Source: Mesorhizobium sp. WSM2240
Lineage (GTDB): Bacteria; Pseudomonadota; Alphaproteobacteria; Rhizobiales; Rhizobiaceae
Length of the DNA: 64,000 nucleotides
Direction of reading: 5' to 3'
NCBI RefSeq assembly: GCF_040438645.1
Contig: NZ_CP159253.1
Coordinates: forward strand, 806,001 to 870,000
The notes under the pieces were generated by a model, which saw only the letters and a program-made list of their open reading frames with translations, was not told where the DNA came from and did not search any database. Positions 110 through 45,652 of the stretch are shown here, in pieces (the stretch's first letter is position 1; each line of letters opens with the position of its first letter). The translations under genes were made by a program, and so were the position numbers.

Positions 110-1150
<1,041 letters not shown>

Positions 1151-12697: not shown

Positions 12698-13333
12698 ATG
12701 TCATACGCGGTCAAGGAGATATTCTACACGCTTCAAGGTGAAGGGCGTAATGCTGGGCGGGCTGCCGTATTCTGTCGTTTCGCTGGATGTAACTTATGGT
12801 CGGGGCGTGAAGCTGACCGCGCTACGGCAATCTGCAGGTTTTGCGACACCGATTTTGTTGGTATGGACGGCGCCGGCGGCGGACGCTTTGCGACCGCGCG
12901 GGAGCTTGCATCTGCCGTTGAGCAGGCTTGGCATGGGGCCGGGGCAGGGGAGCGTCTAGTCGTCCTCACTGGAGGGGAACCGCTTCTGCAGGTAGACGAA
13001 GACCTCATAAAAGCTCTACACGACGTGGCATTCGAAATCGCTGTGGAGACCAACGGTACCATTCACCCGCCGACTGGCATCACCTGGCTTTGTGTCAGTC
13101 CGAAGGCCGGCGCACCGCTCGCAGTCACGGTCGGGGACGAACTTAAGCTTGTCTATCCTCAGCCTGGTGCGGAGCCCGAGCTTTTTGAAGGCCTCGCATT
13201 CAAGCACCTTTTACTTCAGCCGATGGACGGGCCCGAACGCGAGGCGAATACGGCGGCCGCCGTCGCCTATTGCCTTGCCAACCCACGCTGGCGACTGACT
13301 CTTCAAACTCACAAATTTCTTGGGATCCCATGA
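12698..13333 (+). CDS. queE: 7-carboxy-7-deazaguanine synthase QueE
   Basis: This radical SAM enzyme converts 6-carboxytetrahydropterin to 7-carboxy-7-deazaguanine in the preQ0/queuosine pathway. It has 211 residues. The [4Fe-4S] cysteines are C31, C46 and C49, in the CX14CX2C spacing of proteobacterial QueE rather than the usual CX3CX2C. GGEPLLQ and ETNGT motifs are present. Its stop overlaps the queD start as ATGA. The gene order queE-queD-queC covers three consecutive pathway steps; folE is not in the window. Confidence 0.94.
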   Translation: MSYAVKEIFYTLQGEGRNAGRAAVFCRFAGCNLWSGREADRATAICRFCDTDFVGMDGAGGGRFATARELASAVEQAWHGAGAGERLVVLTGGEPLLQVDEDLIKALHDVAFEIAVETNGTIHPPTGITWLCVSPKAGAPLAVTVGDELKLVYPQPGAEPELFEGLAFKHLLLQPMDGPEREANTAAAVAYCLANPRWRLTLQTHKFLGIP

Positions 13334-13683
13334 AAATTACACAAGCTTTCACGTTCGAGGCAGCACACCGCCTTCCGCGGGTGCCGGAAACCCATCGCTG
13401 CCATCGAATGCATGGCCACTCGTACCGTGTGGAACTTCGTCTCGAGGGGCCAGTGGATCCGGAGACGGGCTTTGTTGTCGATTTTTTTGACGTGGAAGCT
13501 GCTTTCGGCCCCCTTTTGCAGCGTCTGGACCATCACTGTCTGAATGACATCGAGGGCCTCGAAAATCCCACCGCCGAAAATATCGCAATCTGGCTCTGGG
13601 ACCGAATCAAGCCGATCCTGCCGCAAATTGCGTCGGTGACAGTCTACGAGACCCCCCAATGCTGGGCTGAATATGAAGGGTGA
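13330..13683 (+). CDS. queD: 6-carboxytetrahydropterin synthase QueD
   Basis: QueD turns dihydroneopterin triphosphate into 6-carboxy-5,6,7,8-tetrahydropterin. The 117-residue protein has the zinc histidines H13 (FEAAHRL), H28 and H30 (HRMHGHSY), and the catalytic cysteine C24. The ATG at 13330 overlaps queE by 4 bp. A longer frame from 13270 would run back into queE and is rejected. Confidence 0.95.
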
Positions 13684-13687
13684 GACG

Positions 13688-14455
13688 ATGCTCCAGGATT
13701 CGGAGACTGCGCTCGTTCTCTTCTCCGGCGGCCAAGATTCAACCACCTGCTTGGCTTGGGCTCTCGACAAATTCGAGCGCGTCGAGACGATCGGCTTTGA
13801 CTACGGGCAGCGGCATCGGATCGAACTTGAGGTTCGGCCGCGTGTGCTCGATCGAATGCGGAGGGACTTTCCGGGTTGGAGCAGTCGACTCGGCGAGGAT
13901 CACCTCATCGACATAGCGGTGCTTGCGCAGGTGAGCGAAACTGCGCTTACCCGCGGTGTAGAGATCGCGATGCAGGAGAACGAACTCCCGAATACGTTCG
14001 TGCCTGGCCGCAATCTTCTCTTCTTAATCTTCGCTGCCGCGGTCGCGTATCGTCGGGGCGCGAAGCATCTGGTCGTCGGCGTCTGCGAGACGGATTACTC
14101 AGGCTACCCCGATTGCCGAGACGACACCATCAAGGCGATGCAACTCGCCTTGAACCTCGGGATGGAGACACGCTTTGTCATCCACACTCCGTTGATGTGG
14201 ATCGACAAGGCGCAGACCTGGGCGCTGGCGGAGCGCCTGGGGAGCGAGACACTTGTTCACCTCATCTGCGAGGAAACCCACACCTGCTACAAGGGCGACC
14301 GCAAGCACCGCCATGCCTGGGGTTTCGGTTGCGGAGACTGCCCAGCGTGCAAATTACGCGCTCGAGGATGGGAGCGATTCTGCTCCTCTCCAGCGAGCGC
14401 GCAGCGCAACCGATCCGCGCCTGTGCCGCCGTGCGCGCCGGCACGCTCAATCTGA
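13688..14455 (+). CDS. queC: 7-cyano-7-deazaguanine synthase QueC
   Basis: This ATP-dependent enzyme amidates and dehydrates 7-carboxy-7-deazaguanine to preQ0. The PP-loop SGGQDST is at residues 13-19 and the zinc site is in FGCGDCPAC near residue 220. The start at 13688 follows AAGGGTGAG, 4 bp after queD; an in-frame ATG at 13673 is also possible. The last 25 or so residues after ARGWERF are low-complexity and unlike the family, suggesting the 3' end has been rewritten by a small frameshift or fusion without touching the active site. Confidence 0.93.
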
Positions 14456-15543
14456 CCAGCTGACGATCGAGGTCACCGCTGCAGCGAAGGATACAGTCCC
14501 TGGCGAATGGTTCGGCTGATGGAGACAGCCGAAGGCGGTCGCCCTCGCTGTCGCAAGATCGTCGGTCGTGCGTCCTGCCTTTGCTTTTCCGGCGGTCAAC
14601 CTTACGGCGTTCCTGGCGGGCTGCGGAACCATCGCCGGAGATTGGCACGAGCGGTCTCAATCGCGCCGAACGGCGCGCTTTTGTGTTCGCCGACGGATCG
14701 AGGCCCCTGTCTTCAGTTGGCAGCTTGCACTGGAGCGCGCCGAATGGCTGGAACATCGGACATCGCTCGACATCATTGCCTCGCGCGTCGACCTGACCCG
14801 TCGGGCCATTCTTCGCGGACTCTCTCAGGCGTGATGCAGCCGTATTCTGGTGTCCACGCCGGTGCGGATACGTCTTGCCAATCATGGCGAAGCAGGTGTC
14901 CTCATCGTCGGCGCCGCCGCCTTTCGATCTGACGGCGCTGCCATGCCCTGCAACGATCCTGCTTCGGTCGGCGGCGGCCAACATGTTCTGTCGCGGCGTG
15001 CCGACCAGCACGTCCAACTCGGTGGGTTCGGGCGTGAAGGTACTCAGCCCATCCCCCTCCATTTCGACGCAGTTGAAACACCGCCTCTGAGCTTTGGTAG
15101 AATGCCTCAACCGTCTGACGGCGCACGGGCGGTTGCCAAAGAGCCTCTCTCCGCCGGAAGCGCGTGGCCGACTGTTCGTCGGCGCTCGACGGTTCGCTTG
15201 CGCTTGCAAATGACAAACTCAGCAGGACGAGTGTTCAGACCTTTTATGTGGGTTGATGCTGACCAATGATGACACTGGTCAGTCCCATACGAACGGCAGC
15301 GCATCTTGATCGCCTTCGAATCCTGGGCTGCCTTTGCGTGCATACGGACCTAACTGTCTGCGATCTAGCGGAGATTTTGGGTCTGAGTCGCAAGCAAATG
15401 TGCGACACGTCCTGTTCAGCCGTGTCAGGTTAGAGACGGCATGTTCGAAAGCCGACGCTGAGGCGCGAGTATTCCATCGATGGGGCCACGCCGTTGCACA
15501 TTGTTTTCCCGTCTTTCAAGCAAAAACCGCAAAAAGTCTTTGA
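14456..15543. other. Long non-coding stretch downstream of queC
   Basis: About 1.1 kb has many short open frames on both strands, none with a recognisable domain, good ribosome-binding site or consistent codon use. It probably consists of decayed sequence. Near its end, TGT-N10-ACG at 15423-15438 is one base off a NifA site and lies about 105 bp upstream of the sigma-54 promoter at 15544. Confidence 0.5.
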
Positions 15544-15565
15544 TGGCACGTCGATTGCAACACTG
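15481..15565 (+). repeat. Promoter-containing repeat, copy 1
   Basis: About 85 bp is shared with 19657-19741. The core tttcccgtctttcaagcaa (15505-15523) is identical to 19681-19699 and is followed in both by A-rich sequence and ggcacgt. In this copy the segment carries a consensus -24/-12 promoter. The other copy has lost the -12 spacing. Confidence 0.7.
15544..15559 (+). promoter_or_regulatory. Sigma-54 promoter upstream of the radical SAM operon
   Basis: TGGCACG-TCGA-TTGCA matches the RpoN consensus at every conserved base. It is about 270 bp upstream of the radical SAM start at 15832, so a long leader is predicted. An imperfect NifA site (TGT-N10-ACG, 15423-15438) lies upstream at a suitable distance. 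This suggests NifA/RpoN expression during nitrogen fixation. Confidence 0.75.
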
Positions 15566-15831
15566 CAAAGGACCCGCGCGACCACGGCGGTCTCCTAGTT
15601 GTCCCCGCAGGAGTTCAGATGAAACTTCCTCGATTGGTCCAAATCGATTGCCATAGACGCTGCACAGTTGAGTGCGTTCCCGCCGCTTCGTCCATGTCGA
15701 CTGAGAGCCACCGAATCAAGACCGCTGATCGAAATTGCACTGCTTGCCCCAAGCACAAGTCTGCGATGTAGCGCGAACGCAACTCCTATCGCGCCTTGCA
15801 TTCCCACGAAAGCCAACGGAGTCCTAAAGAA

Positions 15832-17307
15832 ATGAACGTGCCGAGCTATTCCGAGGCCCTGGAACTTGCGATCGACCGCTCGTACGACATCAATTTGGAC
15901 ATGTTGAGGGCGCGAAATTTGCTCCTTGACACGTACAACGACTATCTCGTCGGCACATATCCTCCTCTCAAGGCAATGGGGGATCTCGATGCCAAGCGGC
16001 TGCTGGCTCGGGTTGCGTCGTCAGTCGACCTCTATTTCCACATTCCCTTCTGTAACCAGTATTGCACCTTTTGCCACTTCGGCAAGGAAATCAATCCGTC
16101 TCCATCCCGAGTGGAGCAATATTTAGCGGCGTTAAATAAAGAGATGATGTGGTCAGACGCGGCGCTTAAGGGCAAAGTTATTGAGACCGCCTTTTTTGGA
16201 GGTGGCACCCCATCATTTTTAACCAAGCCTCAACTAAAGACGCTTTTTAACATTATTAACCAGCGATTTGATTTATCAATGTCAGAAGTAAGTTTCGAAT
16301 TGCATCCCTCTCTTGTAAAGAATGTAGATGCTGCGGATCGCCTTTCGACAGTCCTTGAAGGTGGCGCAAATCGCTTCGTCCTCGGCGTTCAAACTCTAGA
16401 TCCGAAAATCTTGCGCATATTGAATCGCGGGCACGGCGTAGACGAGGTGACACAAATTGTAAAATTGCTAAATGAGATGGACGTCGGGAATCTATCCCTC
16501 GATCTTATGTACGGCCTGCCCGAGCAAACGTTCCGAAGCTGGTACGACTCACTTGTCGGCTTATTGGATATGGGAATAGAGAAGTTCAACATATTCCCGT
16601 TGATGTTTAAATCGACAGACCCCATCGCCCGCCAATTAGCCAGAGGACGATATCAATTCGCTGGTTCGAAGGAGCGGATGATAATGCATTTTATGGCGGA
16701 ACACATCCTCACCGCGCTCGGCTATCGGCACGGGCCGATTTTCTATTGGACTAAGAAGTTACAGCCGCACTCCGTTCAACAGTGCCGTAAATACGATTCC
16801 TGGAACGACAATAATCTTGTCCCGTTTGGGGTTAGCGGATTTGGCTACATGAGTCAGTGCCAGTTCTATAACGAAGCAAACTTGGATCGCTATCTATCCA
16901 GAGTTGAGGCGGGCGAAAAACCAGTTTGGAAAGGTGTAGTACTGTCGGAAGATGATCTAATGCGCAGAACAATAATGTTTGCCTTGCGAAGCAGCGGAGT
17001 GTTGCTATCTCGCTTCGAGCATGAATTTGGGATCTCCATAGAAAAGTACTTTGGCCGAGAGATTAACACCCTAGTGGAAGCGGGACTTGTCAGCATTTCA
17101 GAGGATGGCGTTCTTTCGTTAACTGCAGCCGGCATTATCAATTCGGGTGCTGTATCGCTGCTATTTTTTTCGGACAATGTGCTTGATCGGGTCGCGTACA
17201 ACGATAGCAGGATAACAGACAAACGAACTGACCTGATCGAAAAACACGATTACTCGCCCGCGGGAAGATACGGGTCAAGTGAAGAAATGCAAGCTGTCTT
17301 TCGGTGA
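15832..17307 (+). CDS. HemN/HemW-like radical SAM protein
   Basis: This 491-residue radical SAM enzyme is related to coproporphyrinogen III dehydrogenase (HemN/HemW group). The cluster motif CX3CX2C is C74, C78, C81 in HIPFCNQYCTFCHF, and GGGTPS is at 123-128. The C-terminal half has a HemN_C-like winged domain (RRTIMFALRSSGVLLSRF). It differs from housekeeping HemN and HemW in surrounding residues, and members of this group also act as methyltransferases or on other substrates. It starts at the ATG after AAAGAA. It is AT-richer than its neighbours, hinting at transfer. It overlaps or abuts the next gene and lies behind a sigma-54 promoter. Confidence 0.88.
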   Translation: MNVPSYSEALELAIDRSYDINLDMLRARNLLLDTYNDYLVGTYPPLKAMGDLDAKRLLARVASSVDLYFHIPFCNQYCTFCHFGKEINPSPSRVEQYLAALNKEMMWSDAALKGKVIETAFFGGGTPSFLTKPQLKTLFNIINQRFDLSMSEVSFELHPSLVKNVDAADRLSTVLEGGANRFVLGVQTLDPKILRILNRGHGVDEVTQIVKLLNEMDVGNLSLDLMYGLPEQTFRSWYDSLVGLLDMGIEKFNIFPLMFKSTDPIARQLARGRYQFAGSKERMIMHFMAEHILTALGYRHGPIFYWTKKLQPHSVQQCRKYDSWNDNNLVPFGVSGFGYMSQCQFYNEANLDRYLSRVEAGEKPVWKGVVLSEDDLMRRTIMFALRSSGVLLSRFEHEFGISIEKYFGREINTLVEAGLVSISEDGVLSLTAAGIINSGAVSLLFFSDNVLDRVAYNDSRITDKRTDLIEKHDYSPAGRYGSSEEMQAVFR

Positions 17308-17324
17308 AGTCTGGGGGCTCGTCA

Positions 17325-18518
17325 ATGGTCGCTAAGTCGCCCTTTTCTGTCCCGGACCAGACGTCCCATCGGGCGCAGGGGATTTTTTCTCATCTGACCG
17401 ACAGCATCGATTGCCGGCAGCGAATACGCCCGCTCGGGAATGTTAGCGATTTTGTCGCCGACCAACTCCCGCACCATATCGCGGAGATCAAAGGTAGTGA
17501 ACGGCCAGATGAAACGGTCAAGGCGCTTGGGCATAGCATTAACACGATGATAGCGGGAACGGACTGTGAGGCGCACCTACTGAATCTGTCGCAGTCCGAG
17601 TTTGGAGTGGCTAAGACAGACATCCAGTATCTCGTCAATTGTGCTTATCAGATGTCCGCGATTGCGGGCCTTCATCCCGTCGATGCCGAGTTAACGGTAG
17701 GAGAGCCGCTTAGGCGAATTGCACGCTTGAGCCGCCAGCGGCAGCCTAGCATTGATGTTCTCTCCTATGAAGATATGATCCTTACCAATCCGCTGGAGAG
17801 CGATCCACGAGTATATTGCCTCGGCTCAGCCGGCGTCGAGGAGCGAGATTTTTGTCTGGGTCATCAACTCATTGAGAGCGACTTACAGTCGGCAATGGAC
17901 GCTCTACTTGAATTGCGTGACGCGGTGGGCGCGGATGCGGACCAGTGTCTTGCGCTGTGCGTGAAGTCCCTGGAGTCGGCGAATTATGTACTGGAGCGCT
18001 TTTATGAACATTTATCGCCTGATCTATTCGGCGAGTTTCGCATGTTCTACGGAAAAAACCCTTACAAGGATAGGCTTGGCCCAAGCGGTCGTTTCTCTGC
18101 CCGGATCGTGGCGGTCTCGGTGCTACTGATCGGTGAAGAACTCTTCCACCAGAAACCACAATTTTATAGGGATGTGTATCGGCTGTCAGAGTACTATCCG
18201 CAGGCATGCATTCACGAGGTATTCCGCTGGTTGTCACCAGACAAGGGGAGCGCGCGGCTCCAGCCAAGCTGGCTGGAAGGGGCAGCGGACTTTCCCAAGC
18301 TTGCAACCATTTCGCCCGTCCTGGAGCGCCACGGCAGTGACATCAGAAACCTGCGAGCGGCCTGTGTTTGTGCGCTGGATCGGTTTACCCGGATGCACCG
18401 CAGGACGGCATTGAAATATACGATTGAACCGGGTCGTCCAATCGTCGGAGTTGAGGCGGCGGAGAGTGTTGAGGCGGTACTTTCACAGCGGCTTTTAACG
18501 GCAGTGCATCAAAGCTAA
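17325..18518 (+). CDS. Predicted IDO/PrnB-superfamily haem protein
   Basis: No close family name is obvious, but two features point to the indoleamine 2,3-dioxygenase/PrnB fold. A central FRMFYGKNPYKDRLGPSGRF resembles the substrate-loop region. Near the C-terminus FTRMHRRTALKYTI matches the proximal-haem region of human IDO (recalled as FRSYHLQIVTKYI), making H358 the likely haem ligand. Such enzymes open or rearrange indole rings or act in pyrrolnitrin synthesis. The protein has 397 residues from the ATG at 17325, which has GGGGG upstream. A GTG at 17304 overlapping the previous stop (GTGA) is the alternative. The substrate is unknown. Confidence 0.6.
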   Translation: MVAKSPFSVPDQTSHRAQGIFSHLTDSIDCRQRIRPLGNVSDFVADQLPHHIAEIKGSERPDETVKALGHSINTMIAGTDCEAHLLNLSQSEFGVAKTDIQYLVNCAYQMSAIAGLHPVDAELTVGEPLRRIARLSRQRQPSIDVLSYEDMILTNPLESDPRVYCLGSAGVEERDFCLGHQLIESDLQSAMDALLELRDAVGADADQCLALCVKSLESANYVLERFYEHLSPDLFGEFRMFYGKNPYKDRLGPSGRFSARIVAVSVLLIGEELFHQKPQFYRDVYRLSEYYPQACIHEVFRWLSPDKGSARLQPSWLEGAADFPKLATISPVLERHGSDIRNLRAACVCALDRFTRMHRRTALKYTIEPGRPIVGVEAAESVEAVLSQRLLTAVHQS

Positions 18519-18591
18519 CTGCGGTACCTGCCGAACTAAAAACGTATCATGATGCCACGGACAGCGTCCGAAACCAGAAAGGTGATGGTCG

Positions 18592-19080
18592 ATGTCTCAA
18601 GACGAAGTGATCTTTCGTCGGTTCGAGACAGGGGATGCCGATGATGTATGGCACCTGCACAGACGCGCATCTGAGACTGTTGGTGTGTGTGGTCCGCAAG
18701 GGGTGTGGGAGGATGATTTACGCAATGTCGGAAAGGTATACATTGCGTCAGGCGGAGATTTCGTAGTTGGGCATATTGGTCCCCAGCTCGTTGCTATGGG
18801 TGGATTGAAACCTGTTGACGATGATGTCGCAGAGCTGAAACGTATGCGGGTCCATCCCGCCTTTCAACGGCGAGGGCTTGGAAGGAGGATTCTTAGTGAA
18901 ATGGAATCGCGAGCCGTTGCTCTGGGATTCAAGTGGATAGCGCTTGACACGACTACCGTCCAAGTAGGGGCTCAAAGAGTTTATGAGACCGCTGGCTATA
19001 TTCGCTGCGCGGAAGGGATGTTGCACGGATATGCAGTGATCTTCTACAAGAAGCGGCTCACCGGCCAGGATGACTGTTGA
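18592..19080 (+). CDS. GNAT family N-acetyltransferase
   Basis: This 162-residue acetyltransferase has the acetyl-CoA pyrophosphate loop QRRGLGRR at residues 92-99, after the beta-4 strand ELKRMRVHP. The C-terminal YETAGY and GYAVIFYKK close the fold. AAAGGTG precedes the ATG. It follows the haem-protein gene by 73 bp on the same strand, so it is likely the third gene of the operon. The substrate is unknown; acetylation of the pathway product is a reasonable guess. Confidence 0.88.
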   Translation: MSQDEVIFRRFETGDADDVWHLHRRASETVGVCGPQGVWEDDLRNVGKVYIASGGDFVVGHIGPQLVAMGGLKPVDDDVAELKRMRVHPAFQRRGLGRRILSEMESRAVALGFKWIALDTTTVQVGAQRVYETAGYIRCAEGMLHGYAVIFYKKRLTGQDDC

Positions 19081-19656: not shown

Positions 19657-19741
19657 GCGGAGCCATGCGGTGCACATGAGTTTCCCGTCTTTCAAGCAAG
19701 GCCCGAAAAAAAAGTTTTCGGTGGCACGTTCAGCATCGCTG
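19657..19741 (+). repeat. Promoter-like repeat, copy 2 (decayed)
   Basis: This segment is homologous to 15481-15565, with the identical core tttcccgtctttcaagcaa at 19681-19699. The ggcacgt is retained but the -12 element is out of register, so it is not a working RpoN promoter as read. It overlaps the 3' end of the HAD gene on the other strand, so the last 15 or so residues of that protein are encoded by this repeat. Confidence 0.7.
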
Positions 19742-20507
19742 AAATCTGCGAGCGCGATGGCGCACCCCACCAGTCGCACAAATTGAGATAGCCGAGATCG
19801 CTTGCGCTGTCACCGAATCCGATCGCTGGCCGATCTCCAGACTCCGAGCGGATTTTCCTCAAGAGGAACTCTACTGCTCGGCGCTTTGAAACCGGCGGGG
19901 GAATGAGCGCGAAGTTGTTTCCGTTGTGATGGCGTATCCAACCCGCATCGTCGAACTCAAATTTCAGTTCCGCCAGCCTATTGCCATCACCGTTGATTTC
20001 TTTGAAGACGGCATATGTGGCCATATCCATTTCTTCAACGATCCACGAACGAACGGACATTTTGCCAGCCTCGGCTCCTTGCCGACCTATTTCAAGTACC
20101 TTGTTCAGTGCCTCCCTGTGAGGGATCAGTTCTTTAGAAATGACATCGTGCCATTCCTTCAGATGCGCACCGTCCGGTTTAAGGATGACAGCGCCGTTGG
20201 CTACAATTGCATAGCTGTTGAACGCGATCTTGACGTTCCCGTAGGCCGTGGTGCCACGTGCCGTGACGGGAATGACTTGTGACGTACTCAGCAGCCAATC
20301 GATCATCGCAACCTGCCGCGGGGTCATCATGGAATGATGTCCGTTCGAGGAGATCGCAGCTAGAGCCAGTTTGTCCTGGCTGCCTTTCGGACACTTTGCC
20401 CGCGTCTGGAACAATGTGTCATCCAGATCGGCAAACACGACTGGCTGCATGGCGGGATCTGCGGATTCGACGGGTTGATCAGGCATTGCACTCGATCCGC
20501 GATACAT
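19692..20507 (-). CDS. HAD-family hydrolase of the ter-associated type
   Basis: This is a haloacid dehalogenase phosphatase. Motif I is DLDDTLF, with nucleophile D27 and D29. Motif II is in PVTARG, and motif IV is GFGDSASD. A cap region lies between. The start is set at the ATG at 20507 (271 residues); a TTG at 20528 would add seven. HADs of this type are companions of StiP and TRSP phosphoribosyltransferase genes next to ter operons, where they are proposed to dephosphorylate a nucleoside-like product. The extreme C-terminus is encoded by a repeated promoter-like sequence and may not be original. Confidence 0.8.
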   Translation of the reverse strand: MYRGSSAMPDQPVESADPAMQPVVFADLDDTLFQTRAKCPKGSQDKLALAAISSNGHHSMMTPRQVAMIDWLLSTSQVIPVTARGTTAYGNVKIAFNSYAIVANGAVILKPDGAHLKEWHDVISKELIPHREALNKVLEIGRQGAEAGKMSVRSWIVEEMDMATYAVFKEINGDGNRLAELKFEFDDAGWIRHHNGNNFALIPPPVSKRRAVEFLLRKIRSESGDRPAIGFGDSASDLGYLNLCDWWGAPSRSQISAMLNVPPKTFFSGLA

Positions 20508-20761
20508 ATTTGGAATCGGTTTCTTCAACGTGGAGAGATCCCAGGCAGATGAGTTTGGTTATGCGTTCATATCTATGCCAACCGCCTTTCGTCAAAGCGA
20601 TGGTCAGCCCTGTTATAATCAAGATAGACATCTGTTTACTAACAAGAGTTGCCGTCACGACGGTCGATCAGCAAACCGGATGAATCGAAACGCCGAGCCC
20701 AAGCTCGATCCTGGTTGAATCGGATCGGAAATTTGGATCAAAGGCAATATAATCAAGTTTT

Positions 20762-21850
20762 CTAAACCTTCTTTATTATAGTAATGGCGCGATATGGCTG
20801 GAGTTTTGTCGGGTCGACCTGGAAAGGGATATTCTTCTCCCGGATCAGATGCCGCAGCGCTGCCAGTTCAGCGTCTTCAACGGAAGACAGGAATACAATT
20901 TGAGGCATGCGGCGCAGAATTGCCCTCGTGGCTTCCGCAATCCCTGGCTTGATCCGATTGATATTCTCGACGGCAAACTCTGCAGCAATTCGATTTATTG
21001 CCTCCCGCGATCGTCTCTGATTGCTTGACCGGTCGTTGTCCGTCCACCGCGCGGGCTCATGATTTTGGCCTAGCGCGGCGACGGCATGGGTCCATACATT
21101 GTCCACGAAAGCAGCTGAGATATCGTGGGACATCAAGTGATCCCATCTGACTGTACCGTGAAAATCTTCCGGACCTGTGACCTCCTCGTTCAGTATCGAA
21201 CGGCTGATCAGCCCGGACACGGTGCTTCCGAGTATTCCCGATGGAATGAGCCAGTCTTCGCCCGAGGCCGCAAGCCACGCGCGGCCACAGGGGTCAGACA
21301 GAACCACCAGCTTTGGCGGCTGTGCAGAAAATGAATGGAAGCTCCGTTCCAGCTCAGTGGAAATAGCGCCTTTGCCGGTCCAGCCGTCAACAAACAGCAG
21401 ACCTTCAATGGGCCGCCGCTCAATGATATGGCGCATTGCATTGCTGTCAATCCCGCGGTCCCGGATGATCGAAATGCCAAAGTGTTCGACGTCCTTTCCC
21501 ATGCGCGACAACGCACGCTTGAGGAGAACACCCAAAGGCACCCCGGCCCGAACGAAGCTCGCCAACGTGATCGGGCCTTGAATTTGATTTGAGATAGACC
21601 GCGCGAGAGCTGCCACCTCGCGTCCCATTCTCTCAGCGCCAGCTGACATCGCTTCATAGAATATCGCCATGTAGCCGGTTTCGGGCGCGCTTTCGAGCGA
21701 AATCATTTCCGAATAATGGCGTAGGCCGGACTGTATCGCCGCTTCCTTCAATGCGAGGTCGGTTGGCTCCAAATTTACGAGCTTCAAAAGGAACCTGACA
21801 TCCGTGGTGCGATACGTGCCCGAAATGAATTCACTTTCAGCCTTCAACAA
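20762..21850 (-). CDS. StiP-family protein with C-terminal PELOTA domain
   Basis: The protein has 362 residues. The StiP domain, earlier called a PRTase-like domain and now often annotated as a cysteine protease, spans about 5-290. It shows SGTYRTTDVRFLLK, SFVRAGVPLGVLLKRAL, IIRDRGID and FVDGWTGKGAI. A PELOTA-type RNA-binding domain ends the protein (IVFLSSVEDAELAALRHLI). This fusion is characteristic of ter-linked biosynthetic operons. The start codon is one of two adjacent TTGs (21850 or 21847), just after GGGAGGA. It is 102 bp downstream of the TRSP gene on the same strand. Confidence 0.85.
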   Translation of the reverse strand: MLKAESEFISGTYRTTDVRFLLKLVNLEPTDLALKEAAIQSGLRHYSEMISLESAPETGYMAIFYEAMSAGAERMGREVAALARSISNQIQGPITLASFVRAGVPLGVLLKRALSRMGKDVEHFGISIIRDRGIDSNAMRHIIERRPIEGLLFVDGWTGKGAISTELERSFHSFSAQPPKLVVLSDPCGRAWLAASGEDWLIPSGILGSTVSGLISRSILNEEVTGPEDFHGTVRWDHLMSHDISAAFVDNVWTHAVAALGQNHEPARWTDNDRSSNQRRSREAINRIAAEFAVENINRIKPGIAEATRAILRRMPQIVFLSSVEDAELAALRHLIREKNIPFQVDPTKLQPYRAITIIKKV

Positions 21851-21952
21851 AGTCCTCCCTTCCTCCGCCTCTTACCGGAGCTTGGAGCTCTGGCGTATGA
21901 CTGCAACTCCAAATGCATGGTTGTATGACGATTAATTCTTGGTGAAAATGAC

Positions 21953-23074
21953 TTACTGCGGAATTACTACGGTTGCCGGTGCCAAGAACTCTGTAAGTAT
22001 AGGACTTATCGTCTCTTTATTCGTCTCGGAGCAAAGGAGGACCTTGGCGTAGTCTGACGGCTCAACATTGTACAGATAATTTAACACATGGCCGCCGTAA
22101 TTGTCCTCAAATGCAATTTTTTTTACAATCGTATGACCCACCGAAATCGGCGATCGGGTAACGGATGAGTAGTGGACGTCAGCACCTTCCATCTCCAATT
22201 TTTCCGCGAGCAGGAACGGCTGCCAAACATACTCTCCTGTACCAAGAACAAGGGTCGCACCCGACGCTGCCGCCGCAGCCTGCAGTTGGTGGCTGTGCCG
22301 GGAGACACCCAGCCGCGCCCAGTCGAAACGCTTGTCGGGCGAAGTGACTCTGCCCCTTTTTGTCTTAACTGTTGGCACTTCCGGCGCGTCGATGTTCAGA
22401 CCGTTTGCATCCCAGCGATACCGCCCGGATAGAATTGATGCGCGCTCCACGTTGGCTGCGATCATCTGTTCGGCAGCACCATCTGACCAATCGGTGAGGG
22501 TAACGAGTACCGTATTGCGAAGATTCGACCTGATGCTGGCAGGCAGAGCTGCGAACAAATTGCCAAATGTTTTTCCGGTCGACGCCTCATCGTCAATCAA
22601 TACAAGTGTTTGGGCGTCCTTGACCCTCGAGACCAGACTTGGCGCGAGCGGCCAGTGTAAGAGATGGCTCGTGGCGTGACTGTGCTCCTCCTCGAAACCG
22701 CACATTAGGGGCAACCCAAGTGCATGTCTGGTAGTGCAAATATAAGCGGTATCGTCCCGGTCATTTTGTTCTGAATATTGTTGATGTACGCCCGCACCCA
22801 GCCCGACAGCAGTTTCGGCCATTCCTATGAACAGGATTGGCCCTTCGAGATCGGGTGAAATTTGGTCGGCCAGAAGTTTGTACGTCTTTCGCATCACGGA
22901 AGGCCGCACGGGAATGTGACGTCCGAGCACCTTGGAAACGAACAGGAATGACCGTTTGGGATTGATGCGCTCCGCGAACCCGAACATTGCATCGGGGGGT
23001 ATTAGGCTGCGATCGACTTCAACCGATATGGTTCCGCGGGCGAGTTCGGCAGAAAGGTATTTTTGTAAGGGCAT
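21953..23074 (-). CDS. Phosphoribosyltransferase with TRSP domain
   Basis: This 373-residue protein pairs an N-terminal type I phosphoribosyltransferase domain with a C-terminal TRSP domain. The PRTase has NPKRSFLFVSKVLGRHIPV and the PRPP-binding loop LIDDEASTGKT around 159-169. The TRSP domain is named for the motif that is literally present at residues 306-309 (SVTRSPIS). This architecture is known from ter-associated operons predicted to make a nucleoside-like metabolite. The ATG at 23074 is chosen because family similarity begins there; the frame is open upstream to 23167. Confidence 0.87.
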   Translation of the reverse strand: MPLQKYLSAELARGTISVEVDRSLIPPDAMFGFAERINPKRSFLFVSKVLGRHIPVRPSVMRKTYKLLADQISPDLEGPILFIGMAETAVGLGAGVHQQYSEQNDRDDTAYICTTRHALGLPLMCGFEEEHSHATSHLLHWPLAPSLVSRVKDAQTLVLIDDEASTGKTFGNLFAALPASIRSNLRNTVLVTLTDWSDGAAEQMIAANVERASILSGRYRWDANGLNIDAPEVPTVKTKRGRVTSPDKRFDWARLGVSRHSHQLQAAAAASGATLVLGTGEYVWQPFLLAEKLEMEGADVHYSSVTRSPISVGHTIVKKIAFEDNYGGHVLNYLYNVEPSDYAKVLLCSETNKETISPILTEFLAPATVVIPQ

Positions 23075-23389
23075 TGTTGAAAAACGTCCACCCGAGTAGC
23101 TAATGATTTGGCTCCGTTGTCGCGGGAACCTTCTTGTGAGCAGGCGCTGAGGTAGACGCAGGTTCATGCATACCAGCTACAAACTCCAGCGCTTTACCGC
23201 CGAGATTGTCCCTGCGGGTGGCTTTATTGCCGGTTCGATTTGAGCCTGCGGGTGTCGAGGAATCTGAGCGCGGGACATCGTCGTCTGGGAAACGATCCGC
23301 CGGTGGAGAACAAGCTCGGCCCCGGCTACGTTCGACGCGCACAAGCGGCCAGCTCGAATAATGTTGGCACCTACACGAACCCCTCATCA

Positions 23390-26023: not shown

Positions 26024-27429
26024 ATTAATCTCCAGCTTCTACACCACTTGCGACTTTAGCTCTACGCCAGCGACGTCGATCAAATGGGAACATAACATAG
26101 TCGCGCACGGTGAGCGGCTCGGGCTGGTCTCGGAGGCCAACTTCCGGCCACTCGTTCTTTTTTGGCCAGTATGCCGTTCGAAAAATCGTGTCCCAGATAG
26201 TTGTAAAGAACCCGTAGTTTCGGTGCCGGTGATTCGGTTCCAACGAGTGGTGAATGCGATGGAACTTATTGTCGCCAATGATATATCGAAACGGTCCAAG
26301 GTTGATGCGGGTGCTAGAGTGTGAAAGATGGGCCTGAAAAGTAATCAGCGTCATGGCAACAGCGGGCACTACGCCAGATTCGAAGTGGAACAGCGCGAGT
26401 GGTAGTGCCACTAACCCTGCGTAAACGATTGGCTCGGAAATGTGATGATGGCAATTCCATGCCGTCAGTTCGCGGATCGAGTGGTGAGTAGCGTGCAAGC
26501 GCCAGAGGAATGGAACAGCATGCTGAGCGCGGTGCATCCAGTAGTAGAAGAAGTCGCCGGCAATCGCGACCAAAACGCCTGAAAGGACGGCCAATCCATT
26601 ATTAATGATTGCGTTATCAGAGTGAAGCAACGCTCCGAAATCGATCGTTACGAACGGCTTTATCCCTAACCAGCCCAAGCTCAAAGCGTAGAAGTGCCAG
26701 ATAAAGGCACCGCATCCTAGGCGAATTATCCAATTTCGAACGCCGCGAACGTATGAGGCAAAACTGTATCGATAAGCCGGAAAGAGTAGCTCGAGCGCGG
26801 CGCAAACGGTTGCGAAGATTACAACCAGCTTAAACGATTCCACGAAAATCTTGGTTATCTGGTTAACATCGAGAACGTGCATTTGTTTGCTCCGAATCGT
26901 TCAAAAGCTCCAACCTCAGGTCGGAGTGACTCCCATGAACGCAGTCGTCTTCGCCACGAGGGCGAGACCAATGTTGTTAGTCTCCAGCGTAGCCCTAAAC
27001 TCGAGTCGGCATCCGGACCGATATCCGCGCAGAAATCACGAATTGCGCAGCGGCGCACTGCAGGGATGTGCTATGCAGAATTTTCATAAATCGGTAAAAT
27101 TAGTTGTTTGGATAACGCCCATCCATGTCCCAAATGGTTGGAGGAGCCCACTATGCGCCATGCTGGCGAAAACCAGATGAAGCGACGGCCGGGTGAGCGA
27201 CGCGCCGGGCCGAAGCTCGAGCTTGTACTCTCGCGACCGATCGTCTCGCCGGCATGATCCAGGAGATGCCAAAGGTCTACAAGCAGGTGCCCTCAACGTC
27301 ATCAGCGAGCTCGGCCTGCGCAAATTGACGGCAGCGAACTTATTGGGCGTGGAGGTGATTGAGACTGGGCTCGTCTGGACGCGCGGCCTCCATTTGAAGG
27401 AGCGCGAACGAATAGATGACTGACAAGGC
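26024..27429. repeat. 1.4-kb duplicated block, copy 1
   Basis: This block aligns without gaps to 33570-34975 (offset 7546 bp). The middle, from about 26340 to 27310, appears identical. Substitutions are concentrated in the first 320 bp, plus two near the far end. It carries one fatty-acid-hydroxylase gene and about 550 bp of sequence upstream of it with no clear gene. Confidence 0.93.
26025..26882 (-). CDS. Sterol desaturase/fatty acid hydroxylase family protein, copy 1
   Basis: This is an integral membrane di-iron oxygenase of 285 residues with several transmembrane helices. The histidine boxes are HRAQH (117-121), HATHH (130-134) and HRIHH (208-212), plus HHH at 145-147. This family hydroxylates or desaturates lipids and carotenoids; the substrate here cannot be told. 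It differs from copy 2 at about nine residues, all after position 183. Copy 1 has N217 and R219 where copy 2 has H and W, so the last histidine-rich region differs between copies. Confidence 0.88.
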   Translation of the reverse strand: MHVLDVNQITKIFVESFKLVVIFATVCAALELLFPAYRYSFASYVRGVRNWIIRLGCGAFIWHFYALSLGWLGIKPFVTIDFGALLHSDNAIINNGLAVLSGVLVAIAGDFFYYWMHRAQHAVPFLWRLHATHHSIRELTAWNCHHHISEPIVYAGLVALPLALFHFESGVVPAVAMTLITFQAHLSHSSTRINLGPFRYIIGDNKFHRIHHSLEPNHRHRNYGFFTTIWDTIFRTAYWPKKNEWPEVGLRDQPEPLTVRDYVMFPFDRRRWRRAKVASGVEAGD

Positions 27430-29959: not shown

Positions 29960-31099
29960 TCAGCCGCAAACGGTATACCAGCTGTCGAATCGGCGTGGAG
30001 CCACACAGAGACCGCCGTAACAAACCTTCTCACCCTTGTAGTTGGCCAGAGCCTGTAGCAACTCCGGCAAAAGGTGCTGTTTAACTGCGTTCGCGTCAGG
30101 GTCCGGACCGTCCAGCGACTTCAGTGCCAGCTCGATCAACTCGATCGCCCGATCTTTGTTGCCGCTCTCATGATAGTACCGAGCGACGGCCGGATAAGAG
30201 AACTTAAGGCCTTCGCCTTGCGGGGGATTCAGTGCCAGGATGTGTTCGGACAGCTGTTTGCCCATCGCCAACCGCTCAGCAGACGGAAAGTGCGAACCGC
30301 CAAAGTTCGGATGGAAGAGTTGATCTAGCGCCGCAATCATCCAATCCTCGGAGTTTCTGTTGATCGCGTCGCGAACGAATTGGCGCATGACGGGCAAGCC
30401 GGCCTGCATGTCGCGCATTTTGTTAAGCAACAGATTCACATGAGACCGGCGAAAACCGAGCTTGTCCGGCAACAAGGCGATGCCTTCTTCGATCGCCGAG
30501 AGCGCCGTCTTCCAATCCTTTTTCTCCACCGCCGCCCTATATCTATCATCGATCGGCTTCTTCAGCGCTTGTTCGCGCGCTATGGGTTCGTCTTCCGCAA
30601 TCCGCTTCGTATCGGCGGCTTTCGCTTGCTCGCTGGTGCGCCAGCTGCCGCCAAGCACTTTCGGCAAAATGTCATCGAGTTGCGTCGGAGAACCGATAAA
30701 GGCGATGTGGCCGTCTCGATCGACCACGAACGAGGTCGGAATCCCGACAGAAAAGCTGGGCTCCATCCAAAGCTTGTCCATTTCGCCTGTTGAGTCGAAC
30801 GCGATCCGATAATTCAGGTTCGGGAACTTTTCGGTCAACCACGCGTCCAACTTGCTTCGGGCCTCATCGGCCGTTGGAGCGTTTTCAGAAGCCGCGACTC
30901 CGACGATCTCGACCCCGCTGTCCCTGTACTTCTCCTGCAGCTGCATCAGATGCGGCATCCCGTCCACACATGGTCCGCACCACGTTGCCCAAAATTCGAC
31001 GATATACACTTTGCCGGGCTCGAAGCTCGTGAGGGGCTCGCCACGCAGCCAGTTCTCGACCATAATCGAAGGCGCCGGGGACTCGATCTGCAGTACCAT
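29960..31099 (-). CDS. TlpA-like thioredoxin-domain protein, copy A (3' end replaced)
   Basis: The 379-residue protein has a redoxin domain (about 10-150) with WCGPC (C41, C44) and the cis-Pro region GIPTSFVVDRDGHIAF. An alpha-helical, TPR-like C-terminal half follows. There is no signal peptide, so it is probably cytoplasmic. The ATG at 31099 has GGAG 8 bp upstream; the frame is open to a TTG at 31111. Compared with copy B at 61183, the last 12 residues (RRFDSWYTVCG at the end) come from unrelated sequence past the duplication junction near 29997. Confidence 0.85.
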   Translation of the reverse strand: MVLQIESPAPSIMVENWLRGEPLTSFEPGKVYIVEFWATWCGPCVDGMPHLMQLQEKYRDSGVEIVGVAASENAPTADEARSKLDAWLTEKFPNLNYRIAFDSTGEMDKLWMEPSFSVGIPTSFVVDRDGHIAFIGSPTQLDDILPKVLGGSWRTSEQAKAADTKRIAEDEPIAREQALKKPIDDRYRAAVEKKDWKTALSAIEEGIALLPDKLGFRRSHVNLLLNKMRDMQAGLPVMRQFVRDAINRNSEDWMIAALDQLFHPNFGGSHFPSAERLAMGKQLSEHILALNPPQGEGLKFSYPAVARYYHESGNKDRAIELIELALKSLDGPDPDANAVKQHLLPELLQALANYKGEKVCYGGLCVAPRRFDSWYTVCG

Positions 31100-31395
31100 G
31101 TTGCGCTCCAAAGTTTGCTTTCTGCGCGAGTTTGTTCCCGCTCAGAGACAGCACACGGGTTCAGGGGAGAGAGAGCGTCGCTCGTCTGCCCCCATCGCGT
31201 GCAGTCAGCAACAAATGTGCAATAGCCGTGCCAGCGCGCTCAGCGCCAGTAGCGCCTGATTGCTTGGAAAAACCTCCGCAGTGCCCAGATGGCCGGTCGT
31301 AATGAACCTGACACTTTTGCCAATCCTTGTTCCGAACCTGACATTTTGTCTGCCCTCTGTCAGCTTTTGGACATTCATCGCCCGTGCTTCGCGCC
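29997..31395. repeat. 1.4-kb duplicated block with TlpA-like gene, copy A
   Basis: This block aligns to 61247-62647 with two single-base indels and scattered substitutions, most between 30570 and 30700. It contains the thioredoxin-domain gene and the short dispersed repeat at 31214-31395. Confidence 0.92.
31214..31395. repeat. Dispersed 180-bp repeat, copy 1
   Basis: The segment beginning aatgtgcaatagccgtgcc is also found at 58286-58510 and 62465-62690. It contains spaced copies of an aacctgaca motif (for example 31305 and 31334) and a diverged ctgtcag. Repeated motifs like this resemble transposase-binding ends of an insertion sequence, but no transposase accompanies it. Confidence 0.75.
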
Positions 31396-33569: not shown

Positions 33570-34975
33570 ATTAATTTCCAGCCTCTGCACCACTTCCGAC
33601 TTTAGCTCTACGCCAGCGACGTCGATCAAATGGGAACATAACATAGTCGCGCACGGTGAGCGGCTCGGGCTGGTCTCGGAGGCCAACTTCCGGCCACTCG
33701 TTCTTTTTTGGCCAGTATGCCGTTCGAAAAATCGTGTCCCAGATAGTTGTAAAGGACCCGTAGTTTCGGTGCCAGTGATGCGGTTCAAACGAGTGGTGAA
33801 TGCGATGGAACTTATTGTCGCCAATGATATATCGAAACGGTCCAAGATTGATGCGGGTGCTAGAGTGTAAAAGATGGGTCTGAAAAGTAATCAGCGTCAT
33901 GGCAACAGCGGGCACTACGCCAGATTCGAAGTGGAACAGCGCGAGTGGTAGTGCCACTAACCCTGCGTAAACGATTGGCTCGGAAATGTGATGATGGCAA
34001 TTCCATGCCGTCAGTTCGCGGATCGAGTGGTGAGTAGCGTGCAAGCGCCAGAGGAATGGAACAGCATGCTGAGCGCGGTGCATCCAGTAGTAGAAGAAGT
34101 CGCCGGCAATCGCGACCAAAACGCCTGAAAGGACGGCCAATCCATTATTAATGATTGCGTTATCAGAGTGAAGCAACGCTCCGAAATCGATCGTTACGAA
34201 CGGCTTTATCCCTAACCAGCCCAAGCTCAAAGCGTAGAAGTGCCAGATAAAGGCACCGCATCCTAGGCGAATTATCCAATTTCGAACGCCGCGAACGTAT
34301 GAGGCAAAACTGTATCGATAAGCCGGAAAGAGTAGCTCGAGCGCGGCGCAAACGGTTGCGAAGATTACAACCAGCTTAAACGATTCCACGAAAATCTTGG
34401 TTATCTGGTTAACATCGAGAACGTGCATTTGTTTGCTCCGAATCGTTCAAAAGCTCCAACCTCAGGTCGGAGTGACTCCCATGAACGCAGTCGTCTTCGC
34501 CACGAGGGCGAGACCAATGTTGTTAGTCTCCAGCGTAGCCCTAAACTCGAGTCGGCATCCGGACCGATATCCGCGCAGAAATCACGAATTGCGCAGCGGC
34601 GCACTGCAGGGATGTGCTATGCAGAATTTTCATAAATCGGTAAAATTAGTTGTTTGGATAACGCCCATCCATGTCCCAAATGGTTGGAGGAGCCCACTAT
34701 GCGCCATGCTGGCGAAAACCAGATGAAGCGACGGCCGGGTGAGCGACGCGCCGGGCCGAAGCTCGAGCTTGTACTCTCGCGACCGATCGTCTCGCCGGCA
34801 TGATCCAGGAGATGCCAAAGGTCTACAAGCAGGTGCCCTCAACGTCATCAGCGAGCTCGGCCTGCGCAAATTGACTGCAGCGAACTTATTGGGCGTGGAG
34901 GTGATTGAGACTGGACTCGTCTGGACGCGCGGCCTCCATTTGAAGGAGCGCGAACGAATAGATGACTGACAAGGC
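33570..34975. repeat. 1.4-kb duplicated block, copy 2
   Basis: This is the second copy of 26024-27429. Its left edge is fused to a truncated nifD start and its right edge runs into DUF1403-like sequence. Related but diverged DUF1403-like sequence also lies past the right edge of copy 1, so the original duplicated unit was probably larger. Confidence 0.93.
33571..34428 (-). CDS. Sterol desaturase/fatty acid hydroxylase family protein, copy 2
   Basis: The protein has 285 residues and the same architecture and histidine boxes as copy 1 (HRAQH, HATHH, HRIHH). The first 183 residues are identical to copy 1, while the rest carries about nine changes (for example T184, L187, F214, H217, W219). Both copies have the same upstream sequence, so both may be expressed. 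The substrate is unknown. Confidence 0.88.
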   Translation of the reverse strand: MHVLDVNQITKIFVESFKLVVIFATVCAALELLFPAYRYSFASYVRGVRNWIIRLGCGAFIWHFYALSLGWLGIKPFVTIDFGALLHSDNAIINNGLAVLSGVLVAIAGDFFYYWMHRAQHAVPFLWRLHATHHSIRELTAWNCHHHISEPIVYAGLVALPLALFHFESGVVPAVAMTLITFQTHLLHSSTRINLGPFRYIIGDNKFHRIHHSFEPHHWHRNYGSFTTIWDTIFRTAYWPKKNEWPEVGLRDQPEPLTVRDYVMFPFDRRRWRRAKVGSGAEAGN

Positions 34976-36745: not shown

Positions 36746-36853
36746 TGTCCTTTCGAACGCCGAGGCCGGGCGCTGCGAGCCCTGACCACTCCGCGCCCGG
36801 CCTCGGCTTAAGCTTCAGCCTGTGACACCGTCTGTCAGATTAAGTTTAAACTT

Positions 36854-37894
36854 TTACAGATTCGCCGATGGCAACAAGCGCGCCTGACGCAACGCCGCCA
36901 GATCGGCCGAGCCGGTGCAGAAGCAGGCGACAGCCAACTGGCGGATGACGATCTCGAAATGCGCGACAACCGCCTCGGTGGACACCGTCGCCGCGCGCAG
37001 CACGCCGGCCGCCTGCCCGGCGATGTCCGCGCCCAGGCGGATGGCCTTGGCCACGTCGACGCCGTCGCGGATCCCGCCCGACGCGATCAGCTTCACCGTT
37101 GGCAGCGCCCGACGTACCGCCTGCACGCTGGCCGGGGTCGGAATTCCCCAATCGGCGAACGCCATCGCCACTGCTCGGTCGGCGGGATCGCGGGCGCGCT
37201 CGCCCTCCACCGCGGCCCAACTGGTGCCGCCGGCGCCGGCGACATCGATCACCGCCACGCCCTCCTCGACGAGCGCACGGGCCACCGAGGCGGACAGGCC
37301 CGACCCCACTTCCTTGGCCACGATCGGCACGCCCATGCTGCGCGCGGCGCGAGCGATCTGCGCCAGGATGCCGCGCCAGTCGCGGTCGCCCTCCGGCTGT
37401 ACCGCTTCCTGCAGCGGATTGAGATGGACGATGAGTCCATCGGCCTCCAGCGCATCCACCGCCCGGCGCGCCAGGTCCAGGCCGTCGGCCTCGCGCAGTT
37501 GCGCGGCGCCGATATTGGCCAGCAAGGGAATGTCTGGGGCCAGGCGGCGCAGCGCGCGCGTCAGCCCCTGAGGGTTGCGCGATTGCAGGCTCACGCGCTG
37601 CGAACCGACGCACATGGCGATCCCCAAAGCTTGCGCTGCCTCGCTCAGATGTCGGTTGATGGCCTCGGCGCGTGGCATGCCGCCGGTCATGGAGCTGATC
37701 AGCAGCGGCGCGCGCATGGTCTTGCCCAGCAGCGAGGCCCGCAGGTCGATCTGCGTCAGGTCCAACTCGGGCAATGCGCAGTGTTCGAAACGGATGTACT
37801 CCCAGCCGGCGGCGACCGTGGCCGGCGCCGCGCGCCGATCCAGCACGATGTCCAGATGGTCGTCCTTGCGCCGGCTCAGGGCGGTGTCGCTCAT
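36854..37894 (-). CDS. idi: Type II isopentenyl-diphosphate isomerase
   Basis: This FMN-dependent isomerase interconverts IPP and DMAPP, balancing the C5 units for GGPP. The 346-residue protein has [29 protein letters not shown] (the NPLQE loop) and [10 protein letters not shown], all typical of Fni/IDI-2. The ATG at 37894 follows GGAG. It is the last gene of the gibberellin operon, 85 bp after ks. An intact idi in this position is seen in some gibberellin operons and degraded or absent in others. Confidence 0.94.
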
Positions 37895-37979
37895 GCTCGC
37901 TCCATCCGTCGCATCGGGTGACGGCGTTGCGTCGGATCGGACCGACGGCAGCCTGCGCACGCCGCCGCCTCCCGCGCGT

Positions 37980-40429
<2,450 letters not shown>

Positions 40430-40643
40430 GCGGGACGTTCCTTCTGCAGACGGTTGACGAGAACCAGGATCGGGCAGACGCCGGTCCGCCGCATAGGGTT
40501 GCCCGTAGCGCGCTGCGTGCGCCGTGGCCGTGCTTGCCAATTGCTGCGATCGGCGCCGCGGACTGGACACAGTGCAGCAACATGCACCGCTGCCGCCGGC
40601 CGATCGCAGCGGCACAGGGGCGACTCCATGCGGACAGGCGCGC

Positions 40644-41651
40644 TCATGCGCATGGCGCGTTCTTGAACAGATACGCCTTGGCCCGCTGCAGCATCTGCGC
40701 CAACCGTTCCGCACGCGGCCCCAGCGGGGTGATGGCCTCCCCGGCGTCGCGCAACAGATCCAGCGCGAACTGGCGCGCTTCCTGCAGCCCCATGACCGAC
40801 GCGCAGGTCGGCTTCTGCGCGGCCGCGTCCTTGCCGGGAGTCTTGCCCAGCGTCGCGGTATCCGCTGTCGCGTCGAGAATGTCGTCGACCACCTGCAGCG
40901 CCAGGCCGAAACAGGCGCTGTAGCGATCGAGCGCACAGTACAGCGCAGCGTGCGCGGCATCCTCCACGATGGCGCATAGCGCGCCCATGCGAACGGACGC
41001 GCGCACTAGCGCTCCGCTCTTCATCCGGTGCATCGCCACGATCCTGTCCAGCTCCACGTGCTTTCCGACCAGCGACAGATCCATGGCCTGCCCGCCTGCG
41101 GCACCCTCGGCGGACACCGCCTGCGCCAGTTCGCGCACGAGCGCGATACGGTTGTCGCCCGGCGCATCCAGGCTCGCCAGGGTTAGGAAGGCGTGCGCCT
41201 GCAGCGCATCGCCGACCAGGATCGCAGTGGCTTCGCCGAACTTGACGTGCACGGTCGGAAGGCCGCGGCGAAGCACGTCGTCATCCATCGCGGGCAGGTC
41301 GTCGTGGACCAGGGTACAGGCGTGCATCATCTCGATGGCGGCGCCGACGTCGTCGAGCATGTGCGCCGGCGTGTCGACTAGTGCGCCGGCAGCCAGACAG
41401 AGCAAGGCGCGGGTGCGCTTCCCGCCATGCAAGGTGGCGTAGCGCATCGCCGCCATCAGCTCGGTCTCACCGTCCTCTTCGGCGCAGAGAAGACGCGCCA
41501 GCGCCTGTTCGACCCGCTTTGCGCCGTCCTGCATCCAGATCTCCGGCAGCAGCCTGCCGGATGCGCCGCCCGCCTGCGCGCCCAATCCGCCTAGCGCAAA
41601 AACGCCAGTTCGGTCGTCGTGTAGCGTGGAACCGGTCTGCATGTTGTTCAT
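40644..41651 (-). CDS. ggps: Geranylgeranyl diphosphate synthase
   Basis: This trans-prenyltransferase supplies GGPP to CPS. It has 335 residues. GGKRTRALL precedes the first aspartate-rich motif DDLPAMD (117-123), and the second, DDILD, lies in QVVDDILDATAD. The chain is full length, unlike the truncated ggps reported in some rhizobial operons, so the operon can make its own precursor. Starts at 41651 or 41642 are both possible; AAGGAC lies just upstream. Confidence 0.93.
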   Translation of the reverse strand: MNNMQTGSTLHDDRTGVFALGGLGAQAGGASGRLLPEIWMQDGAKRVEQALARLLCAEEDGETELMAAMRYATLHGGKRTRALLCLAAGALVDTPAHMLDDVGAAIEMMHACTLVHDDLPAMDDDVLRRGLPTVHVKFGEATAILVGDALQAHAFLTLASLDAPGDNRIALVRELAQAVSAEGAAGGQAMDLSLVGKHVELDRIVAMHRMKSGALVRASVRMGALCAIVEDAAHAALYCALDRYSACFGLALQVVDDILDATADTATLGKTPGKDAAAQKPTCASVMGLQEARQFALDLLRDAGEAITPLGPRAERLAQMLQRAKAYLFKNAPCA

Positions 41652-41794
41652 GTCCTTGTACCTGACAGGAGACGGCCACGGCGAGCGGCGAGCCGCCGCG
41701 GTGTTGCCCGGCGTCGCGCCGAGCGCGCGCCGAGTGCAGCAATGCTGCGCGTCGCGGCGCCGCTGCCTCGCCACACGGGGCATGCGATGTCAGC

Positions 41795-44269: not shown

Positions 44270-44270
44270 C

Positions 44271-45560: not shown

Positions 45561-45652
45561 CTTGGTTACCTGTTGGCTGGCTGATCTGACCGGCGCGCCA
45601 GGCGCGCCGGCAAATTGCGGAGAAGATCGCGATTCCTGGCGGCGTCCGCGCA

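Follow-up and report, generated by a model that had tools for sequence, protein, structure and literature searches.

A candidate NifA/sigma-54-controlled module of a HemN-like radical SAM protein, an IDO/PrnB-type haem protein and a GNAT acetyltransferase in rhizobial symbiosis regions

We analysed a stretch of 64,000 nucleotides from Mesorhizobium sp. WSM2240 (contig NZ_CP159253.1, positions 806,001 to 870,000; hereafter the window), in which three adjacent genes encode a HemN-like radical S-adenosylmethionine (SAM) protein (rSAM), a predicted haem protein (ORF2) and a GNAT acetyltransferase. The reading we favour, with a probability of roughly 60%, is that these genes form a mobile biosynthetic module of symbiosis regions and plasmids, served by a NifA/sigma-54-type promoter, in which ORF2 as a haem-dependent aromatic oxygenase (HDAO), rSAM and GNAT would act on one molecule. 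The product would be small, acetylated, tryptophan-derived and made in nodules, much as a preliminary description drawn from the DNA had proposed, and the three-gene unit looks like an undescribed pathway for a modified tryptophan-like molecule during symbiosis.

The tight same-strand packing noted in that description is borne out: the GTG start of ORF2 overlaps the rSAM stop by 4 bases, and GNAT lies 73 bases past ORF2 (an alternative ATG at 17325 would give an ORF2 of 397 residues; Table 1). The trio also recurs together in other genomes, as that description required. Contigs from one genome per species yielded 31 loci, and GNAT follows ORF2 in all of them, with a full rSAM preceding ORF2 in 21, a C-terminal rSAM fragment in 4 (L006-L009) and none in 6 (L021-L023, L027, L030 and L031; the L027 contig ends inside ORF2, and ORF2 of L030 and L031 aligns only from about residue 160). 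Across the 24 intact copies (21 genome loci, 2 plasmid loci and the window), correlations between the distance matrices of the three proteins lie at 0.885-0.937, with 0.937 for rSAM and ORF2, and none of 1000 permutations reached values as high. Median dN/dS is lowest for rSAM (0.107), followed by ORF2 (0.192) and GNAT (0.219), and the trio is thus under purifying selection and co-inherited. L006-L009, R. tropici CIAT 899 and a Mesorhizobium protein of 589 residues show ORF2 and GNAT joined in a single polypeptide, and throughout the R. tropici group (L006-L009 and L034) this fusion is accompanied by an rSAM reduced to a C-terminal fragment. Beyond the trio, no ORF family occurs in more than 8 of 37 sources, whose flanks vary in length and in some cases stop at contig edges. 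A large nonribosomal peptide synthetase gene lies near the trio in Bradyrhizobium sp. 187, past an IS21 element (L036, 13740-19200).

NodA was detected in 31/31 carrier genomes. In a sample of 297 genomes from the window's family it was detected in 18, two of them by weak matches only. ORF2 was present in 2 of those 297, both with NodA, in 2 of 289 genomes of the class and in 2 of 398 of the phylum; the window's own genome is counted in every case.

A consensus -24/-12 promoter had been reported at 15544, and we found it there and, as a strict TGGCAY-N5-TTGC element within 800 bases, upstream of 24/24 trios with an intact rSAM start. Mononucleotide shuffles put the chance of a strict element at about 0.001 (0.1%) per upstream region, and both strands of the 674,891 bases searched hold 45 such sites. 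The recurrence upstream of the trios exceeds chance, some of the 24 trios being close kin, so that promoter and site counts are not independent. Perfect TGT-N10-ACA activator sites lie within 250 bases 5' of the promoter in 12/24 loci, where 1.16 would be expected, always with one at -94 to -98, and both copies of the site are perfect in L013 and L032. Paired one-mismatch sites spaced 19-20 bases apart occupy the same position in all 10 loci checked, namely the window and 9 of the 11 other loci that lack a perfect site. These elements support a NifA/sigma-54-type promoter, and the operon would therefore be expected to be on in nitrogen-fixing nodules. The promoter precedes the rSAM start by 288 bases in the window (200-790 in relatives), which implies a long leader, and the leaders share the block AGGAGTTCAAATGAAACTT, or a sequence near it, without keeping a reading frame. 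Duplicated nif fragments occur behind some M. loti NifA promoters, as reported in the accessible part of PMC3538637. A leader of this origin was rejected here, since positions 15540-15700 occur just once in the genome at E 0.01.

In the second gene, FTRMHRRTALKYTI near the protein end (residues 361-374) had been likened to the proximal-haem segment of IDO, and a family-profile search agrees, aligning it with that segment of IDO1 and H365, invariant in 36 sequences, with IDO1 H346. The family profile was needed for this, as phmmer with ORF2 alone gave chance matches only against PDB sequences; PrnB was not among the profile matches. Pfam and NCBIfam scans at E ≤ 1 returned no PrnB-specific family for ORF2, and one relative is labelled a DUF1864 protein by its source. 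A first structure model was weak, with a pLDDT of 73.9 and nothing below 0.001 in Foldseek, and a second, built with six added alignment rows (five distant, one fused), gave a clear match: the model shares the fold of PrnB (9dfg, E 2.3e-5, 12-16% identity) and aligns with IDO structures at 10-18% identity, with weaker, partial matches to TDO and MarE. The anticipated IDO/TDO helical haem fold was thus recovered in the prediction, which together with the alignment supports an IDO/PrnB-type haem fold with a conserved proximal His. The predicted pocket comprises H365 (proximal), H187 (distal), R246, Y155 and F183, with H187 at the place of IDO1 S167 and of His55 of TDO/MarE. Among distant relatives, that of L042, from the window's class and split in two frames, stands beside an aldo-keto reductase-like gene, with no rSAM or GNAT recognised nearby by eye, and a Kitasatospora relative lies between tannase and biotin-carboxylase genes.

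The first gene carries the CX3CX2C motif and HemN-like tail ascribed to it, as C74-C78-C81 and a HemN_C domain, and both Radical_SAM (E 1.7e-19) and HemN_C (E 3.3e-11) are over their Pfam cut-offs. Among PDB sequences it matches HemN (1olt, E 1.1e-39) and NocN, a class C methylase (E 2.9e-17). In NCBIfam it scores 182 bits against a cut-off of 325 for HemN (TIGR00538), 177 against 400 for HutW/ChuW and 186 against 380 for STM4012, and two other genes of the genome pass the HemN cut-off with 390 and 365 bits. The fourth conserved Cys of HemN (CxxxCxxCxC) is present in the genome's HemN L043 (CxxxCxxCAC) and in 1olt (CxxxCxxCGC) and is replaced in the rSAM motif CxxxCxxCHF, invariant in 11 subfamily sequences. 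In addition, the alignment reads C-R at what we take to be the HemN F310/Q311 positions. The sequence evidence supports a protein that is HemN-like but not HemN, and it makes the label 'coproporphyrinogen-III oxidase family protein' carried by these genes look misleading. According to the accessible part of the NocN source (PMC12871812), the residues that bind two SAM molecules in NocN/HemN are Tyr34/Tyr56, Arg153, Arg171 and Asp196. In alignments read by hand, Y68, R181, R199 and D224 of rSAM, invariant in 11 subfamily members, match Tyr34, Arg153, Arg171 and Asp196 of NocN as given there, and the alignment stops before the catalytic Tyr276 of NocN. Among the best 120 of 493 relatives, 20 have 77-93% identity (rhizobial where named), 82 have 38-47%, with Streptomyces, Saccharopolyspora, Amycolatopsis, Actinomadura, Nocardioides and an Archangiaceae metagenome-assembled genome among the source names, and 18 have 28-30%, leaving a gap between the first two groups. 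A search for the genomic context of the non-rhizobial rSAM subfamily matched only three rhizobial plasmid records.

The third gene is a GNAT as described, its acetyl-CoA loop QRRGLGRR lying within an Acetyltransf_1 domain that scores 51.9 bits against a cut-off of 20.7. We propose that the module is transcribed in nitrogen-fixing nodules from the NifA/sigma-54-type promoter and that ORF2 would be a histidine-ligated HDAO of the IDO/PrnB branch. H365 would hold the haem, R246 would bind an alpha-amino acid by its carboxylate, Y155 and F183 would line an aromatic pocket, and H187 would touch the indole N-H and steer O2 chemistry; these pocket residues favour a tryptophan-like amino acid as the probable substrate. 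rSAM, which keeps most of the two-SAM residues, may work on this molecule too, either ahead of ORF2 or following it, by adding one carbon or by related radical chemistry, and GNAT, in some strains the C-terminal part of the ORF2 polypeptide, would acetylate the molecule's free amine. From what is accessible of the respective sources, MarE has the same His and Arg pair and uses it to bind beta-methyl-Trp (PMC11904535), HDAO enzymes besides IDO and TDO occur mainly in natural-product pathways (PMC11791213), and IDO itself is capable of monooxygenase activity (PMC12921851). Oxidation, radical chemistry and N-acetylation of one skeleton are favoured because of the pocket residues, the MarE precedent, the natural-product roles of HDAO enzymes and the genome's own TDO and kynureninase. 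A bolder version, which we hold only tentatively and consider less likely than not, is that nitrogen-fixing bacteroids alone, under NifA, produce a symbiosis metabolite of a new class. It would be an oxidised, N-acetylated tryptophan derivative with a radically introduced C-methyl group (or another one-carbon modification), arising from a HemN-type two-SAM radical enzyme and an IDO-type haem oxygenase in a hitherto undescribed pairing, and it might act on host auxin or defence chemistry.

Simpler roles for the individual proteins have to be weighed against the joint pathway. ORF2 could be a plain tryptophan dioxygenase that forms N-formylkynurenine in the nodule, with GNAT acetylating kynurenine and rSAM only loosely connected; the IDO1 pocket residues kept in ORF2 agree with this, as do L021-L023, where rSAM is gone, ORF2 and GNAT persist and the strict promoter is kept 183-197 bases before ORF2 (in L021 the first rSAM codons run in frame into ORF2). 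However, a TDO and a kynureninase are already encoded elsewhere in the genome, which makes a second plain tryptophan-degrading enzyme less likely than a specialised one, the natural-product setting of HDAO enzymes other than IDO and TDO points the same way, and a loosely connected rSAM fits poorly with the most constrained member of the trio being co-inherited with ORF2. We therefore regard this explanation as unlikely.

Less probable still is an rSAM that acts on a tetrapyrrole, modifying or supplying haem for ORF2 in microoxic nodules in the manner of HemN or HutW. The HemN domain order, the 1olt match and the closeness of the STM4012, HemN and HutW scores would fit this role, but all three scores are far under their cut-offs, the fourth Cys is replaced, the positions taken as F310/Q311 differ and ORF2 persists where rSAM is gone. 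In particular, a HemN duplicate that supplies haem was rejected, given the score below the cut-off, the lost Cys and the two HemN genes already present. The leader might instead encode the precursor of a ribosomally synthesised and post-translationally modified peptide, with rSAM acting on it: the window has a 50-codon ORF at 15619-15771 with a good ribosome site, L002 has one with the same start place, and its first bases are common to relatives at the DNA level. We rejected this candidate and give it very little credence, since many relatives carry indels that break the frame, the ORFs differ in length and sequence, and no such ORF exists at some loci.

Several observations weigh against the joint, nodule-specific pathway that we prefer. 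Nodules are poor in O2, which oxygenases of the IDO type require. ORF2 reaches 11.3 bits against the 26-bit Pfam IDO cut-off (PF01231) and is consequently placed in the IDO superfamily and not filed as an IDO; the model matches 16/36 sequences of the ORF2 family at E ≤ 0.1 (best 4.5e-6), the window's ORF2 being outside these 16, and the segment that holds the proximal His, taken alone, reaches no more than 0.52 in the profile search. Both activator-like sites of the window have one mismatch, and L006, L034, L030 and L031, where rSAM is decayed or missing, showed no strict promoter in the 2.6 kb 5' of the ORF2 match. As rSAM is truncated in 4/31 loci and absent from 6/31, not every carrier can run three steps. 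Nine plasmid records hold at least 80% of ORF2, with a full rSAM in three, a fragment in two and none at E 1e-60 in four, and in these four plasmids, from B. elkanii and B. barranii, the GNAT match is in three pieces. Such rSAM losses and truncations, the broken GNAT genes and the promoterless decayed loci mark the unit as accessory, not universal, and 16 of the 18 nodA-positive family genomes (apparently of the same 297, and including the two weak matches) are without ORF2. Finally, NocN Tyr96, a second-SAM contact, is Phe in rSAM, a position that the NocN source, in the part accessible, does not treat as diagnostic (PMC12871812).

Table 1. Coordinates of the candidate operon and its elements in the window
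Feature	Position	Strand	Remarks
Candidate operon region	15423..19080	+	Activator-like sites, promoter, leader, rSAM, ORF2, GNAT
NifA-type upstream activator-like site 1, TGT-N10-ACG	15423..15438	+	One mismatch to TGT-N10-ACA
NifA-type upstream activator-like site 2, TGT-N10-ACG	15442..15457	+	-102 from promoter element
-24/-12 (sigma-54) promoter TGGCACGTCGATTGC	15544..15558	+	Sequence match
Leader	15559..15831	+	Holds short block AGGAGTTCAGATGAAACTT common to relatives
HemN-like radical SAM (rSAM) gene	15832..17307	+	491 aa; C74/C78/C81 cluster motif; Pfam domains
ORF2, predicted IDO/PrnB-fold haem protein	17304..18518	+	GTG start, 404 aa
GNAT acetyltransferase gene	18592..19080	+	162 aa; Pfam GNAT domain

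On its 5' side the operon is preceded by nif-like, acdS-like and queE/D/C-like genes, the nif and acdS assignments being made by eye; the queE-, queD- and queC-like genes (7-deazaguanine pathway, Pfam matches) occupy 12698-14455, between the acdS-like gene and the operon and close to nif. Elsewhere in the window, HAD hydrolase, StiP-PELOTA and PRTase_2-TRSP genes lie at 19692-23167 (-) and have a strict -24/-12 site upstream on the same strand, at 23715, and perhaps are also sigma-54 controlled. Three near-identical strict sites, CGCGCTGGCACGGCTnTTGCACATT, are found at 31233, 58305 and 62484 (-), two of them some 122 bases upstream of duplicated genes that appear thioredoxin-fold-like by eye (29960-31111 and 61183-62361). 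Two nearly identical genes of 285 residues (26025-26882 and 33571-34428, -) resemble desaturases or hydroxylases by eye, and P450, diterpene cyclase, prenyltransferase and SDR genes at 36846-46855 (-) recall, again by eye only, the rhizobial gibberellin operon.

Compared with known systems, ORF2 differs from IDO1, IDO2 and SO4414 in its low identity, its score under the Pfam IDO cut-off, the His in place of S167 and its position between rSAM and GNAT in a sigma-54-type operon. With PrnB, a bacterial HDAO of the specialised pyrrolnitrin pathway, it has a predicted fold in common, with PrnB not among the sequence matches of the profile; unlike the PrnB setting, no halogenase-like gene was recognised among the operon neighbours scanned. 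The distal His and substrate Arg are arranged as in MarE and TDO, as far as the accessible part of PMC11904535 describes them, whereas the architecture appears closer to IDO/PrnB. rSAM has in common with HemN and the class C methylases NosN and NocN the CX3CX2C motif, HemN_C and the Y68/R181/R199/D224 set, the latter as judged from the partly accessible NocN source, but it is without the fourth HemN Cys and has Phe at NocN Tyr96; methyl or methylene transfer by rSAM is putative. Among the best 120 of 493 matches it groups with the 38-47% relatives, many of them actinobacterial where named.

The promoter type is that of the NifA-RpoN regulon of M. loti R7A, in which acdS is a NifA2-dependent target (PMC3538637, accessible part), and the window has an acdS-like gene upstream; the trio is not among the rows of Table 1 of that paper that were examined. 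In the accessible part of a P. phymatum NifA paper, a table gives strongly negative values for a GNAT, a radical SAM protein and QueE (PMC8305402); no P. phymatum relative of ORF2 or GNAT was found among the plasmid matches, the presence of P. phymatum plasmids in that set being unchecked, and we claim no link. The CIAT 899 genome paper, as far as accessible, reports two pSym acetyltransferase genes, not evidently this GNAT (PMC3557214). No published description of the trio was found in a literature search that left subscription journals mostly outside its coverage and is hence weak evidence of absence; on that evidence, each kind of enzyme is known, and their combination, restriction to symbiosis and NifA-type control are not described. 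To our knowledge, few NifA-controlled small molecules of bacteroids are known beyond nitrogenase-related products and gibberellins. The trio would add to these a module that is compact, mobile and conserved and bears a clear regulatory signature. It joins a putative haem oxygenase, with pocket residues suggestive of an aromatic amino acid, to two candidate tailoring enzymes and offers a testable route from sequence to nodule metabolite, and ORF2 would add a rhizobial subfamily to the haem-dependent aromatic oxygenases.

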